Shown here piece by piece: positions 21,647 to 25,535 of a stretch of 35,704 bases of DNA (position 1 is the stretch's first letter; each line of letters starts with the position of its first letter). The stretch covers positions 1 to 35,704 of the forward strand of contig CAMDLK010000013.1 of assembly GCA_945901725.1 (NCBI GenBank). Direction: 5' to 3'. Both the position numbers and the translations under genes were made by a program. The notes under the pieces were generated by a model. That model saw nothing but the letters and a program-made list of their open reading frames with translations, ran no database searches and was not told where the DNA came from. This DNA comes from Bifidobacterium breve (GTDB taxonomy: Bacteria; Actinomycetota; Acidimicrobiia; Acidimicrobiales; Ilumatobacteraceae).

Positions 21647-22354
21647 GTGCAAGATTTCTGCCCAGCGCCGGTGCGCCGACCAATTATGAAGCAACAGTGG
21701 CAAGAGCTTGCCTACATTCATTGGCGTTACGACGCTTCAGTGGTGCAGGCGTTACTGCCTGAAGGGCTTGAAGTCGACACCTTCGATGGCTCCGCGTGGG
21801 TGGGCCTTATTCCTTTCTCAATGCGCAATATCTCTTTTCCGGGCACTCCTGCGATTCCATACCTCGGTTCATTTCCCGAAGTGAATGTGCGTACGTATGT
21901 AAAGAAGGACGGAATTCCGGGAGTCTGGTTCTTCTCGCTTGATGTGAATCGGTTGCTTCCAGCACTTGCAGCGCGCGCTTCATATTTCTTGCCCTACTGC
22001 TGGGGTAGTGCCTCGAATGTGGTGACTTCTGATTCACTCACCACAACTGTGAAGCGTCGTTGGCCACATGTTGCGTCTACATCTATTCGTGTTTCAATCG
22101 GCGAACGTATTGAACAGCCTGATGAGTTGTCAGTGTTCTTGTCTGCACGATGGGGTTTGTACTCAAAGGGGTTCGGCAAAGGTCTGCGATATGCACCAGT
22201 TGATCATGAGACATGGATTCTGCATTCTGCAACGCTTGAGCATGTAAACGACACGCTGGTAATAGCTGCTGGCCTACCTGCACCTACAGGTGATGCGCAC
22301 GTTATGTATTCGCCGGGTGTTTCCGTACGAATCGGATTACCGCATTCGGTTTAG
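21647..22354 (+). CDS. DUF2071 domain-containing protein
   Basis: A 235-residue protein that matches the DUF2071 (YqjF) family along its length. The marker segments are HWRYDASVVQALLPEGLEVD, GSAWVGLIPFSMRNI and GVWFFSLDVNRLLP. The function of the family is unknown; its fold resembles acetoacetate decarboxylase. The start is a GTG at 21647, supported by TAAGGT at 21635-21640, six bases before it. Its stop overlaps the convergent SCO6745-family gene by TTAG. Confidence 0.88.
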   Translation: MQDFCPAPVRRPIMKQQWQELAYIHWRYDASVVQALLPEGLEVDTFDGSAWVGLIPFSMRNISFPGTPAIPYLGSFPEVNVRTYVKKDGIPGVWFFSLDVNRLLPALAARASYFLPYCWGSASNVVTSDSLTTTVKRRWPHVASTSIRVSIGERIEQPDELSVFLSARWGLYSKGFGKGLRYAPVDHETWILHSATLEHVNDTLVIAAGLPAPTGDAHVMYSPGVSVRIGLPHSV

Positions 22355-23220
22355 CGGCGACGGGGCCTAGCTGCTGGCATCCAGTTCTCGCCTGCGATCT
22401 CATTGATGTGTTGCACATAGCGTTCACCAACAGGTTCAAGAATAGATAACAGCTCAACTGTGTTCTTTTCGCCGAAGTGACGCCACGGAATTTCACACAA
22501 CACATCAGTTCGGCGTTCAAGTTCTATTCGGTATTCAACACCTGCATCGTTGACAACGCCATCTGTGACGAAGCCACGTGACGACAGGTTGTCGAGTGCA
22601 GCCAGAATTTCGGCATCATCGGCCCCACGACTACGTGGAATCCATTCTTTGGGGTACCCCATCCATGCATCATGCAGAAGCCCGGCTTCCACCACGCCGA
22701 TGTTGTCGTTCAACAAAATTCCGAAATGTGTGTCACCACGCCATTCACGAATGCAATTGAGGGCGTTCCAGGCAGACATCAATGGGTCAGTTGGTCGTGG
22801 CCATGATTTATGTGCGGCAAACAACACGCGCCCACTTGCAGGAATTGCATCAACTGTTTTCCATAGGTCATCTGCCAGCGCACCAAATGGCGCAATGATC
22901 TGCGGAGTCATTTCTTCAAGGCCAACGCGCACTGCTGAATCGCGTGCAACTGTGACTTCGTGCCAATCAGTTATGTACGTTGTTGCATTGTTTAGTGCGA
23001 AGTGAACAAACTCACGCTTGATTGTGTAGAACGCTGCGAACAATGCTTCTGCTCCAGCTGGCGCTAAGGGTGCACCACGGTTCACTATGTAGTGACCTAG
23101 GCCTTCAGGTACACCAAGTGCAGCGAGGTTTTCTTTTGCACGTGGATCCCAGAAGATCCAGCCCAGTAGTTGGTGCGACGCAAATGATGCGCGACGAGTG
23201 AGATCTTGCCAATCAGCCAT
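22351..23220 (-). CDS. SCO6745 family protein
   Basis: A 289-residue, largely helical protein. The N-terminal segment with DPRAKENLAALG, GHYIVNRGAPL and AFYTIKREFVHFAL is the mark of the actinobacterial SCO6745 family, in which a partly conserved RAAPLG patch follows the first helix. The C-terminal half has a winged-helix-like stretch (AALDNLSSRGFVTDGVV) and may bind DNA, though no experiment is known to me. The function is unsettled. TACGGT at 23227-23232, six bases before the ATG, suggests a leaderless transcript; GAAGGA directly before the start is too close to act as a ribosome binding site. Confidence 0.7.
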   Translation of the reverse strand: MADWQDLTRRASFASHQLLGWIFWDPRAKENLAALGVPEGLGHYIVNRGAPLAPAGAEALFAAFYTIKREFVHFALNNATTYITDWHEVTVARDSAVRVGLEEMTPQIIAPFGALADDLWKTVDAIPASGRVLFAAHKSWPRPTDPLMSAWNALNCIREWRGDTHFGILLNDNIGVVEAGLLHDAWMGYPKEWIPRSRGADDAEILAALDNLSSRGFVTDGVVNDAGVEYRIELERRTDVLCEIPWRHFGEKNTVELLSILEPVGERYVQHINEIAGENWMPAARPRRR

Positions 23221-23252: not shown

Positions 23253-24095
23253 TTATGAGTGCAGAGTATTCGCAACACCAACAAGGTCTGTGAGGGCACT
23301 GTCCATTGCATCTGAACCTTGCTCGGGAACATCGTTGAAACGTCCGATGTATGTAATTGCAACTTCACCATTTTCTACAGCACCACCATCAGTGTCGCCT
23401 GGCATTTGCGCTTGCGCGCCGTAATTCATTCGTACATAGAAAGCACCTTCGTGGCCTTCTTTGGCTTCAAGATCTGCTGTCGCCATTGCAACGGGAACAA
23501 TGTGCCCAATTTCAGTACGTCGCCAACCCTTCATGTCTGCCACTGCACAGTTCGGAACATTCACGTTGATAACGACTGCCTCTTTTGGTCGGTCTGCAAT
23601 CCAACCTTCAACTACGCGCTGTGCAACTGTTGCTGCTGAATCCCATTGCTGACCTATCAACGCTTCGTCCCAACCTTGGCCTTCAGCACCGAAACCGGTT
23701 ACTGCCTGACTGATTGCAATTCCACTAACTCCGCCATTACGTGCAGTCACTGCTGCACCTACTGTTCCCGAGTGGTACACGGCACGGCCAACGTTTGCGC
23801 CGGGGTTAATGCCTGACACGACAAGATCAAACGGACCGCCGTACACACCGAGGCGAGCGAAGAAAACACACAATGCAGGTGGGCCAGTGATTGCCCATGA
23901 AGTATCGATGCCTTCAATCGTGCGTTTTTGTACTTCAGGCTGAATGATGTGCAGTGCACCAATGGCTGCACCCGCACCTGAATACTCCTGGTCTGGGGCA
24001 GCAACTACTACTTCACCGTATGGGCGCATTGCGCGGGCCAAGACATGCAGGCCGACAGAGTCGATGCCGTCATCATTTGTTACAAGAATTCTCAT
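23253..24095 (-). CDS. surE: 5'/3'-nucleotidase SurE
   Basis: A 280-residue SurE. The metal-binding start RILVTNDDGID places Asp8 and Asp9, with the third ligand Ser39 in QEYSGAG and Asn in VVSGINPGANVG (about 96). The conserved YHSGTVGAA follows. SurE is a metal-dependent phosphatase that releases phosphate from nucleoside 5'- and 3'-monophosphates and short polyphosphates. It follows the PhnZ-like gene by 12 bases on the same strand, so it probably belongs to the phosphonate operon, where it would add a second source of phosphate. The C-terminal extension beyond the core is about 30 residues and typical of actinobacterial members. Confidence 0.92.
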   Translation of the reverse strand: MRILVTNDDGIDSVGLHVLARAMRPYGEVVVAAPDQEYSGAGAAIGALHIIQPEVQKRTIEGIDTSWAITGPPALCVFFARLGVYGGPFDLVVSGINPGANVGRAVYHSGTVGAAVTARNGGVSGIAISQAVTGFGAEGQGWDEALIGQQWDSAATVAQRVVEGWIADRPKEAVVINVNVPNCAVADMKGWRRTEIGHIVPVAMATADLEAKEGHEGAFYVRMNYGAQAQMPGDTDGGAVENGEVAITYIGRFNDVPEQGSDAMDSALTDLVGVANTLHS

Positions 24096-24107
24096 GGTGA
24101 TTCGTTT

Positions 24108-24665
24108 CTATAGTTTTTCGAAATGGAAATTGAGCAGGCGACGAAATTCATCGAGTGGGAATTGGTCCTTATTTATGTCTTTGCCAATGTCATCCCAGCG
24201 GCGAAGTGCAATCGCTTCTTCGAATTGTGGCATCGCCATAAACCGATCAGCTTCTTGTTCTGACATAGGGCCACCTTGCAACGCAAGACTGGCAACAGAT
24301 GCCGGGCTCAATGTTTCAAAGTAACCATCTTCACGAGCACAGAGCCAACGCTTGCCATCAACATGGAGTGCAATAGGAGCAGTAACAGCGGGTGGAAAAA
24401 GCGAAGCCAGCAAGCGGGCGGCGGTCGCCTCGTGCGCCGTGTCTATTTCGTGTTCCTCTTTGCCCGCAGAGTCTTCAAGATCAACAAGGTGGCCGACATC
24501 GTGAAGCAATGCGGCAAGTACAAGCGCGCTTGATGCGTCTGCTTCTTCAGCCAACTGTGCGCATTGAACTGCGTGAGCTGTTTGAGAAATGTTTTCGCTG
24601 TAAAACTGTTGTCCCCATTTTTCAAAGAGAGATTCAATTTCTATCAGTGATGTAAATTTGTTCAT
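24108..24665 (-). CDS. phnZ: PhnZ-like HD-domain di-iron oxygenase
   Basis: A 185-residue HD protein of the phosphonate-degradation subgroup (TIGR03276/PhnZ). The metal ligands are H31, H55, D56, H78 and H101 plus the Asp in RRWDDIGK near the end; H59 follows in HDVGH. The substrate side is marked by HVDGKRWLC with Lys105 (PhnZ Lys108 region) and by the family segment SLALQGGPMSEQEADRF. PhnZ uses a mixed-valent di-iron centre to cleave 1-hydroxy-2-aminoethylphosphonate to glycine and phosphate; TmpB does this on N-methylated relatives. Glu24 aligns with PhnZ Glu27, while the PhnZ Tyr24 position is Phe21, with Tyr22 beside it. It overlaps the dioxygenase gene by ATGA. Confidence 0.85.
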   Translation of the reverse strand: MNKFTSLIEIESLFEKWGQQFYSENISQTAHAVQCAQLAEEADASSALVLAALLHDVGHLVDLEDSAGKEEHEIDTAHEATAARLLASLFPPAVTAPIALHVDGKRWLCAREDGYFETLSPASVASLALQGGPMSEQEADRFMAMPQFEEAIALRRWDDIGKDINKDQFPLDEFRRLLNFHFEKL

Positions 24666-25417
24666 AAGGGTCTTCCTTCAAAATCATTGATGAGTGAGAT
24701 GCGGACATTGTCGGCTCCGTGTTCCGTGTCACGGAAAATACGAAGTTTCTCTTCGTAGTAATCAGATCGAAGATCGCCTTGGCTCGCGGCGTTAAAGGTG
24801 GGGTAGATGGCACGGCGGTCACGTTGCGAATTATTGGTGCCACTGCGGTGTGGAGTGTGTGAGTGAAAGAACAAAACGTCACCAGCTTCCATCTCAACCG
24901 GATGCCATTCATGTGTTTCCACCCAGTCGTTCACGATGCATCCGCGGTCGTTCATGGGAAGCAGTTCATGGTGTTGTCCGTCGACAACTTCTAAACAGCC
25001 ATTTGCAACAGTGCTTTGGTCAACTGCAATCATGCATGAAATTGACGTTTCAATAAATGGGTACGCCGGCGCATCTTGATGAGGGAGGAACCCTGCTCCG
25101 CCGACCAACTTGTAGTTGATTTTTTCTTTGTAGAGAACTGCTTGTTCACCCATGAGGGCAGAGACAATTTCTACGATTGCACCAGTAGTCAAAATCTCGC
25201 GCAGAGGAGTATGGAATGGGACGAAATTTTCTGTGCGGCACAGTTTCGGTCCGCCGTCCGTCATTTCGCGATAGTGCAACCAGTTGCCATTTTCGGGCCA
25301 TTGCTGAATTTCATCCACCCACTGCTGGATGTCACGAATTTCTCCACCCACAAACGGGCGGCACAAAAGCCAGCCATTACGTCGATATGAATCGATCTGA
25401 GGGGTAGTTATGTGCAC
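24662..25417 (-). CDS. phnY: PhyH-type Fe(II)/2-oxoglutarate dioxygenase, PhnY/TmpA-like
   Basis: A 251-residue phytanoyl-CoA-dioxygenase-family hydroxylase. The iron facial triad is H113-x-D115 (LPHQDAPAYP) and H190 (FFHSHTPHRSGTN), with a 2-oxoglutarate-binding Arg at about 201. Next to a PhnZ-type partner this fits PhnY or TmpA, which hydroxylates 2-aminoethylphosphonate or its N-methyl forms at C1, making the substrate for the HD enzyme. Which phosphonate is used cannot be read from sequence. I chose the GTG at 25417 because TACGAT at 25424-25429 lies six bases before it; a longer frame from 25465 would run across that promoter. It is the first gene of the three-gene unit. Confidence 0.82.
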   Translation of the reverse strand: MHITTPQIDSYRRNGWLLCRPFVGGEIRDIQQWVDEIQQWPENGNWLHYREMTDGGPKLCRTENFVPFHTPLREILTTGAIVEIVSALMGEQAVLYKEKINYKLVGGAGFLPHQDAPAYPFIETSISCMIAVDQSTVANGCLEVVDGQHHELLPMNDRGCIVNDWVETHEWHPVEMEAGDVLFFHSHTPHRSGTNNSQRDRRAIYPTFNAASQGDLRSDYYEEKLRIFRDTEHGADNVRISLINDFEGRPL

Positions 25418-25423
25418 CACCTC

Positions 25424-25429
25424 ATCGTA
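25424..25429 (-). promoter_or_regulatory. -10 hexamer TACGAT, phosphonate operon
   Basis: It lies six bases before the GTG at 25417 and uses the same hexamer and spacing as the TetR gene. It decides the start of the dioxygenase. No clear Pho box could be recognised by eye. Confidence 0.55.
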
Positions 25430-25535
25430 TTGAGTAGCCCCCAATTGGGCATAGCCCTGACCCAACTGTTCACCTCTGTGTTACCGCCTGTATGGGTGGT
25501 ACCGTTTCCCCAAGTTCGAGGGATAGGGGACCCAT

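Follow-up and report, generated by a model that had tools for sequence, protein, structure and literature searches.

Evidence for an oxidative phosphonate-cleaving gene pair that accompanies a C-P lyase cluster in freshwater Ilumatobacteraceae, with surE as an apparent lineage-specific neighbour

What do an Fe(II)/2-oxoglutarate dioxygenase gene (phyH), an overlapping HD-domain gene and the nucleotidase gene surE do side by side in a genome that is labelled Bifidobacterium breve and placed by its lineage in the Ilumatobacteraceae? The three genes lie in the window, the stretch of 35,704 nucleotides (GCA_945901725.1, contig CAMDLK010000013.1, positions 1 to 35,704) that was analysed here, and the original prediction took them for a compact phosphonate-oxidation operon, PhnY/TmpA-like and PhnZ-like, joined to surE and used without a carbon-phosphorus (C-P) lyase. 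The best explanation, which as a whole is given a probability of roughly 80%, is that phyH and the HD gene encode an oxidative phosphonate-cleaving pair. This pair is part of the phosphonate gene complement of freshwater Acidimicrobiia (Ilumatobacteraceae/acIV); it exists alongside, and does not replace, the C-P lyase cluster that this genome also carries, and surE looks like a lineage-specific neighbour rather than a part of the pathway. Gene order, protein families, ligands, the predicted fold, the company of phn clusters in relatives and the positions of the boxes described below are shown, whereas the chemistry, the substrate, phosphate control and read-through into surE are inferred. In what follows, G000 is the window's own genome, other G numbers are genomes of its genus, and L numbers are loci, L089 being contig C29 of G000.

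The HD protein combines the H..HD..H..H..D ligands with the PhnZ-like fold of the PhnZ/TmpB/MIOX oxygenases, and its residues Y22, E24, H31, H55, D56, H78, H101, K105, R106 and D158 are invariant among 38 aligned sequences; the full ligand set originally attributed to it is intact, and the HVDGKRWLC and LQGGPM segments are present. In the Protein Data Bank (PDB) its sequence matches with E<=10 are confined to TmpB, the best of them, and PhnZ, and 10 of 10 Foldseek chains at E<=0.001 for its predicted model (predicted local distance difference test score, pLDDT, 94) are likewise TmpB or PhnZ. Encoded beside this ligand set, the PhyH protein has a 2-His-1-carboxylate set with an arginine (H113, D115, H190 and R201, invariant in 36 aligned sequences), which includes the HxD..H residues already noticed, and it matches the NCBIfam methylphosphonate hydroxylase model NF052437 with 252 bits (E 6.4e-75), the second-best NCBIfam match standing at 20.9 bits. 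The same model is the sole strong NCBIfam match in all 36 members of the PhyH alignment, others reaching E 1.4e-8 at best, and as far as the available references reach the dioxygenase does not group outside the phosphonate clades. No TmpA match for PhyH was found in NCBIfam, the presence of a TmpA model in that library not having been checked. With Fe(II), O2 and 2-oxoglutarate, PhyH would hydroxylate the carbon adjoining the phosphorus of an imported phosphonate, after which the HD enzyme would use O2 at a mixed-valent di-iron site to split the C-P bond and release phosphate; methylphosphonate would be converted in this way, through hydroxymethylphosphonate, to formate and phosphate.

Further phosphonate genes are present in the same genome. 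Contig C29 carries phnG, phnH, phnI, phnJ and phnM together with phnC, phnD and phnE, in a cluster that runs phnE, phnC, phnD, a gene for a choice-of-anchor I protein, phnG, phnH, phnI, phnJ, two ATPase genes, phnM and an inositol-phosphatase-like gene. The two ATPase open reading frames are phnK/phnL-like (relatives' copies match PhnK and PhnL), while phnG scores 85.7 bits (cut-off 89) and phnD 190.6 bits (cut-off 261, yet above the cut-off of the wider family). This cluster contradicts the proposal that the organism does without C-P lyase, and the accompanying remark that no transporter adjoins the pair is true locally but not of the genome, which has PhnCDE on contig C29.

Pairs in related genomes are found in or next to such clusters. 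In two other species of the genus (G144 and G181) the C-P lyase operon ends with the pair, which comes immediately after phnM and the phosphatase gene, and in another genus (L139 and L140) the pair opens the lyase operon, with phnG behind it and the divergent transporter side in front; at L143 it borders the transporter side (PhnCDE), with no phnG in the 2.5 kb behind it, and at L126 it lies near PhnCDE. In both trees the subclade of the window forms a nine-row group with the two operon-embedded pairs of G144 and G181 and one more (Shimodaira-Hasegawa-like approximate likelihood ratio test support 99 for PhyH and 92 for HD), these being quick trees with several long branches. Among the best 80 named relatives in the matches listed, mostly actinobacterial metagenome-assembled genomes titled Acidimicrobiia, Ilumatobacteraceae or Actinomycetota, the HD gene stands directly behind phyH in 68, and there are C-P lyase genes within 4 kb in 8 (9 before a generic ABC match at L237 was excluded), PhnD/PhnE in 7 and either in 11. 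When HD was counted at >95 bits in 200 sampled genomes of the family, 18 had both HD and PhnJ, 52 HD alone, 6 PhnJ alone and 124 neither (totals 70 and 24), giving a Fisher p of 4e-5, a value that overstates independence in view of the kinship among these genomes; of the 18 double carriers, 10 have HD and PhnJ no more than 14 kb apart on the same contig. The prediction of an oxidative phosphonate-cleavage pair is well supported, with HD matches at E<=0.001 restricted to PhnZ/TmpB, intact ligands and the pairs of several relatives in or beside C-P lyase or PhnCDE clusters. An association of phnZ with C-P lyase is already known in outline: according to the accessible part of PMC9381506, the two co-occur in some genomes (21%), and substrate-specific genes are sometimes located inside C-P lyase operons. 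Among the papers listed for Ilumatobacteraceae (15 of 702) and for acIV (1), the titles and abstract openings give no account of the pair in these bacteria.

Some side observations concern the same loci. Next to phnD at L089:5669-7729, L091, L092, L139, L140 and L143, a choice-of-anchor I protein is conserved (670-686 aa in two scanned copies). In C-P lyase operons of the genus (L089:13648-14520, L090, L091, L092), phnM has behind it an inositol-monophosphatase-like gene, which may replace PhnP for the late phosphatase step. Five metagenome bins (L169, L170, L183, L188, L191) are labelled Bifidobacterium breve in their public records and have phyH genes that group with Acidimicrobiia bins; the organism name looks wrong.

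The closest characterised pair was sought through the gating loop of the HD oxygenase and through curated models. In PhnZ and TmpB the tyrosine of a Y-x-x-E loop covers one iron and the glutamate contacts the substrate amine, as described in the accessible part of PMC8177086. The loop of the window protein reads F-Y-S-E (Y22-S-E24), a Y-x-E form one residue shorter; an alternative alignment of F21 to Y24 of the Y-x-x-E loop retains the spacing to the glutamate and loses the tyrosine. The Y-x-E form is found in 88 of 102 aligned HD sequences, some two-tyrosine rows fitting Y-x-E and Y-x-x-E alike, and in all five over-cut-off PhnZ1 proteins examined, whereas PhnZ, TmpB and the Phn-HD proteins of Variovorax and Nostoc have Y-x-x-E; as a mark of PhnZ1 it is drawn from these sequences and is not a published criterion. 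Because its loop is Y-x-E, the window pair was grouped with PhnZ1 and not with PhnZ/TmpB. The HD alignment omits 10 of the 80 named loci (L158, L159 and eight judged repeats of included loci), and the HD tree omits 12 of the 102 rows through a motif filter against a divergent HD type, L160, L178 and L203 among these being ordinary HD proteins.

A survey of 392 genomes of the planctomycete phylum with the PhnZ1 model gave 36 genomes with a match at E<=1e-30, of which six were over the cut-off (407-412 bits), and in all six of these genomes a PhyH gene precedes the HD gene. The window HD protein is 42-46% identical to the HD proteins of these six pairs, and PhyH is 43-45% identical to the products of the adjoining PhyH genes; the three of these products that were scanned reach 506-551 bits with the methylphosphonate hydroxylase model (cut-off 500). 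The six pairs serve as stand-ins for the characterised Gimesia pair and are not taken as Gimesia maris. By sequence, the closest characterised pair would be PhnY*/PhnZ1, which acts on methylphosphonate, rather than TmpA/TmpB, with the window proteins outside the curated equivalogs. Of the PhnY/TmpA-like labels, the assignment to phosphonate dioxygenase/HD pairs thus stands, and the nearest pair becomes PhnY*/PhnZ1, by model match and Y-x-E loop.

Two further kinds of HD gene were observed among the relatives. A divergent HD gene lacking the loop tyrosine lies upstream of phyH at L179, L183, L186, L195, L196, L199, L215 and L216; at L215 and L216 it is about 1.4 kb from phnG, phnH and phnI, and it may represent a further variant of the pair. 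HD relatives in open frames of 550-780 aa occur in other genera of the family (L126, L127, L128, L131), being either fusions or merely long frames.

Several points weigh against the assignment to PhnY*/PhnZ1 or against a phosphonate role for the pair. The HD protein reaches 205.2 bits against TIGR03276 (Phn-HD), just below the cut-off of 214.6, and its 142.6 bits against the PhnZ1 model NF052439 (cut-off 300) are nearly equalled by the 142.7 bits against the TmpB model NF049941 (cut-off 300, not reached), while the score of PhyH lies below the NF052437 cut-off of 500. The PhyH tree contains no PhnY (2-aminoethylphosphonate) sequence and cannot choose between PhnY and PhnY*, and the preference for PhnY* may be due in part to no PhnY model having been matched; distant PhyH matches from Rhizobium and Nostoc, obtained in plasmid searches, were set aside unused. 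The window pair adjoins no phn gene, and in 6 of the best 80 relatives an ABC transporter that resembles a 2-aminoethylphosphonate importer lies just upstream of the pair. Of the ATPases only that of L171 was scanned, and its best match is a putative 2-aminoethylphosphonate transporter (373 bits, cut-off 457.7); the importer matches comprise this ATPase, a binding protein and two permeases at L171, and a binding protein and one of two permeases at L182. This upstream transporter points to an aminophosphonate substrate in that branch.

Since both proteins score below the curated cut-offs, the substrate is left undecided. Methylphosphonate is the single likeliest, at close to even odds, with 2-aminoethylphosphonate or another phosphonate as the alternatives. 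The accessible part of PMC10574752 describes the Gimesia dioxygenase as specific for methylphosphonate and its HD partner as cleaving hydroxylated 2-aminoethylphosphonate also. That the window pair acts on aminophosphonates (2-aminoethylphosphonate and its N-methyl forms) in the manner of PhnY/PhnZ or TmpA/TmpB, yielding glycine or a betaine, is a somewhat unlikely alternative to which the importer-like transporter upstream in the six relatives and the similar scores of the TmpB and PhnZ1 models lend weight. The invariant E24 would be the loop glutamate that reaches the substrate amino group in PhnZ and TmpB (PMC8177086, accessible part), but this glutamate is also present in the five PhnZ1 proteins examined, and the Gimesia enzyme is reported in the accessible part of PMC10574752 to cleave both substrates, so that an amine cannot be concluded from the glutamate. 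The shorter Y-x-E loop, as in PhnZ1, and the best match of the dioxygenase to methylphosphonate hydroxylase speak against the aminophosphonate alternative. No PhnX over the cut-off was found in the 32 genomes of the genus (weak matches occur in 15 of them, and also in 14 of 14 control genomes); a hydrolytic PhnX route was dropped on this ground, and no such route would make an aminophosphonate-cleaving pair redundant. Much less credible is a pair that cleaves no phosphonate, such as a PhyH hydroxylase of secondary metabolism with an HD hydrolase. The neighbours of the window pair (amidohydrolase, flavin monooxygenase and acyl-CoA dehydrogenase genes, without phn genes) would suit it, as would the top structural matches of the PhyH AlphaFold model (pLDDT 93.8), oxygenases from the pathways of proline, ectoine and antibiotics, but the HD protein matches PhnZ and TmpB only, and sister pairs are located within C-P lyase operons.

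The third gene raises a separate question. The SurE protein scores 136.8 bits against TIGR00087, above the cut-off of 135.1, and does not reach the narrower SurE models; it matches PDB chains at E 5e-26, with NDDG and SGINxGxN-like motifs aligned. A phyH gene (>=50% identity) is present in 18 of the 32 genomes of the genus, the copy of G204 being in two pieces, and surE follows the HD gene in seven of the 18 (G000, G104, G115, G185, G209, G201, G204). The adjacency is therefore not a peculiarity of one genome, and it is confined to one subclade. In the other 11 no surE was seen behind the pair, the contigs of G144 and G181 ending soon after it, and the idea that surE generally partners the pair was dropped, since surE lies behind the pair in 2 of the best 80 named relatives, both of the window's subclade. 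The genus has 21 surE orthologs (one of them a fragment), of which 14 are not beside the pair: in G197, G207, G205, G177, G152, G093 and G070 surE is directly divergent from the amidohydrolase gene with the SCO6745 family gene behind it, in G126 it is divergent from the amidohydrolase gene without SCO6745, and the remaining six have other neighbours or a contig end. Overall, surE adjoins SCO6745 in 19 of 20 judgeable loci of the genus. Because the surE tree needs at least two changes of the pair-adjacent state, gain and loss of the adjacency are both possible.

The genes phyH, HD and surE are all under purifying selection in three comparisons, with ratios of nonsynonymous to synonymous substitution (dN/dS) of 0.039-0.074 between G000 and G104, G185 and G209; with G201, which is more distant, dS could be obtained for surE alone (dN/dS 0.059). 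This selection on surE, its position on the same strand 12 bases behind the HD gene, the seven adjacent cases and a PHO-box-like element upstream of the unit would all suit surE as a working third member of the pathway, for example one that frees nucleotides of phosphate or phosphonate esters when the cell is starved of phosphate. Such a role is improbable in view of the 14 orthologs without the pair, seven of them at the same place between amidohydrolase and SCO6745, of the 11 pair-bearing genomes without surE seen behind the pair (with the two ending contigs among them), of the 2 in 80 relatives and of the repeated change of adjacency on the surE tree. The joining of surE to the pair, as originally described, stands as an adjacency in seven genomes; the joint phosphate-salvage role proposed with it is a conjecture, because as many genomes keep surE-SCO6745 at the same place without the pair. 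A search for literature joining surE, phosphonate and phnZ yielded, by its listing, only a review of marine archaea.

The reading of surE as a lineage-specific neighbour is illuminated by a comparison of the site in five genomes of the subclade, three pair-less and two with the pair. On the amidohydrolase side these are alike (80-95% identity) up to GGTACCACC, beyond which the two genomes with the pair have one sequence in common (z 4.8), the pair-less genomes share another (z 6.3 and 7.5, with 2.3 in the third comparison), and pair-bearing and pair-less genomes are unlike (z -1.3 to 1.4 in three cross-comparisons). From this comparison, a cassette of promoter, phyH and HD gene stands where most, if not all, of the surE promoter of about 71 bases would be. 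A point that counts against promoter replacement is that in G201 the 90 bases immediately preceding surE, most of them HD coding sequence, weakly resemble the pair-less promoters (z 2.5-3.0; 0.3-0.6 in G000). In this one subclade, the pair with its own promoter would have taken the place of the surE promoter, and surE and SCO6745 would probably be read through from the promoter of the pair. Thus surE may share the control of the pair without belonging to the pathway.

Phosphate control was examined with a repeat pattern of the Streptomyces PHO-box kind. The accessible part of PMC7866108 describes the Streptomyces PHO box as two 11-base direct repeats. Boxes matching at least 11 of 14 positions precede pstC at 23 of 23 loci (in 23 of the 32 genomes of the genus), with at least 13 in 14 of the 23, as compared with 3.3% and 0.13%, respectively, of random 150-base stretches. 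A box lies at the same place before phyH in six genomes of the surE subclade, at 14/14 in G201 and at 11/14 in the window and four others. Against phosphate control it must be set that the window box has a score reached by those 3.3% of random stretches and runs opposite to the pstC boxes, towards the amidohydrolase gene, so that it might serve either phyH or that gene; moreover, the pattern occurs at chance in the whole window at up to 3 mismatches (8 matches, 6.7 expected), and at up to 1 mismatch in six genomes it is not commoner than a reversed control (12 versus 19). The phyH promoters of nine other pair loci have no box (scores 8-10, like random), and of 14 native surE promoters 13 have none (scores 5-10), G126 scoring 12 and G160 having only 18 bases to the contig end. 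Weight is carried only by the position of the box, the pstC promoters and the 14/14 site of G201, from which phosphate control of the pair in the surE subclade appears likely. The C-P lyase intergenic region of G000 has a single GGTGAAC and no match to the pattern at up to 3 mismatches, and because of this joint control of the pair and the C-P lyase in G000 is unsupported.

C-P lyase makes methane from methylphosphonate. If the pair takes the same substrate, it would be a methane-free alternative and would change how counts of phnJ are read. As a tentative proposal, more doubtful than not, lake Ilumatobacteraceae may possess two C-P-bond breakers that share a substrate and a phosphate control and, in some species, also an operon, the choice between a methane-making lyase and a formate-making pair setting the release of methane from lakes; phnJ counts alone would then overstate methane, and surE would have been drawn under the same control when the cassette replaced its promoter in one subclade. 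The accessible part of a study of Flathead Lake (PMC10734540) names Ilumatobacteraceae among the main carriers of phnJ in that lake, and a count over the text of the study gives no phnZ. What makes the locus of interest is that lake bacteria combine methane-making with possibly methane-free routes; surE matters less, as a neat local case of a cassette for nutrient acquisition at a shared promoter.

The layout of the locus is summarised in Table 1. The coordinates of the open reading frames confirm the three same-strand genes, the ATGA overlap and the 12-base gap (24096-24107) of the original prediction; a further 32 bases separate surE from the SCO6745 family gene, the product of which scores 173.6 bits against NF047719, above the cut-off of 120. 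Pfam E-values are 1e-25 for PhyH, 7e-6 for HD and 1e-45 for SurE. An in-frame TTG lies at 25465, upstream of the GTG of phyH; the hexamer TACGAT ends 6 bases before the GTG in six genomes (G000, G104, G115, G185, G209, G201) and, as a -10-like element, would suit the GTG start. Divergent from phyH are the amidohydrolase gene, from 25536, then the flavin monooxygenase gene and then the acyl-CoA dehydrogenase gene.

Table 1. Features of the phyH-HD-surE locus, in positions of the window
Feature	Position	Strand	Remark
phyH, Fe(II)/2-oxoglutarate dioxygenase, PhnY*-like, putative phosphonate alpha-hydroxylase	24662..25417	-	GTG start at 25417
HD-domain gene, putative mixed-valent di-iron oxygenase of the Phn-HD/PhnZ1 kind	24108..24665	-	profile, sequence and fold matches
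ATGA stop/start overlap of phyH and HD gene	24662..24665	-	4 bases
surE, SurE-family 5'/3'-nucleotidase	23253..24095	-	TIGR00087 and motifs
SCO6745/HTH_67 family gene, usually found behind surE and perhaps a fourth member of the unit	22351..23220	-	NF047719
PHO-box-like direct repeat GTTCACC-TCTG-TGTTACC	25468..25485	+	11/14 positions matched
TACGAT, possible -10 of a nearly leaderless phyH transcript	25424..25429	-	conserved spacing; inferred

Among known systems, PhnY*/PhnZ1 (GmPhnY/GmPhnZ) of Gimesia maris converts methylphosphonate to formate and phosphate; the window pair resembles it in the order of a PhyH-type dioxygenase and then an HD oxygenase, in the ligand sets and in the Y-x-E loop, and differs in its scores below the equivalog cut-offs and in its phylum. 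PhnY/PhnZ of the uncultured HF130_AEPn_1, the substrate of which is 2-aminoethylphosphonate, shares the two-step oxidative logic and the fold and ligands of the HD protein, but PhnZ has Y-x-x-E where the window protein has Y-x-E. TmpA/TmpB of Leisingera caerulea acts on trimethylaminoethylphosphonate; here the HD fold is common to both, TmpB being the best PDB match, whereas the loop of TmpB is Y-x-x-E and the window dioxygenase has no TmpA match in NCBIfam. The TIGR03276 Phn-HD genes in or at the end of plasmid C-P lyase operons of Variovorax sp. SRS16 (plasmid 4, L240) and Nostoc sp. ATCC 53789 (pNsp_b, L241) are HD relatives in C-P lyase company that differ in their Y-x-x-E loop and in having no PhyH partner in the stretches shown. 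The window SurE shares motifs and model cut-off with the known SurE 5'/3'-nucleotidase and differs in its place behind a phosphonate pair. Finally, PhoF of the fungus Fonsecaea multimorphosa is a PhnY-PhnZ fusion with the same two activities (PMC10574752, accessible part), which in the window are assigned to two overlapping genes.

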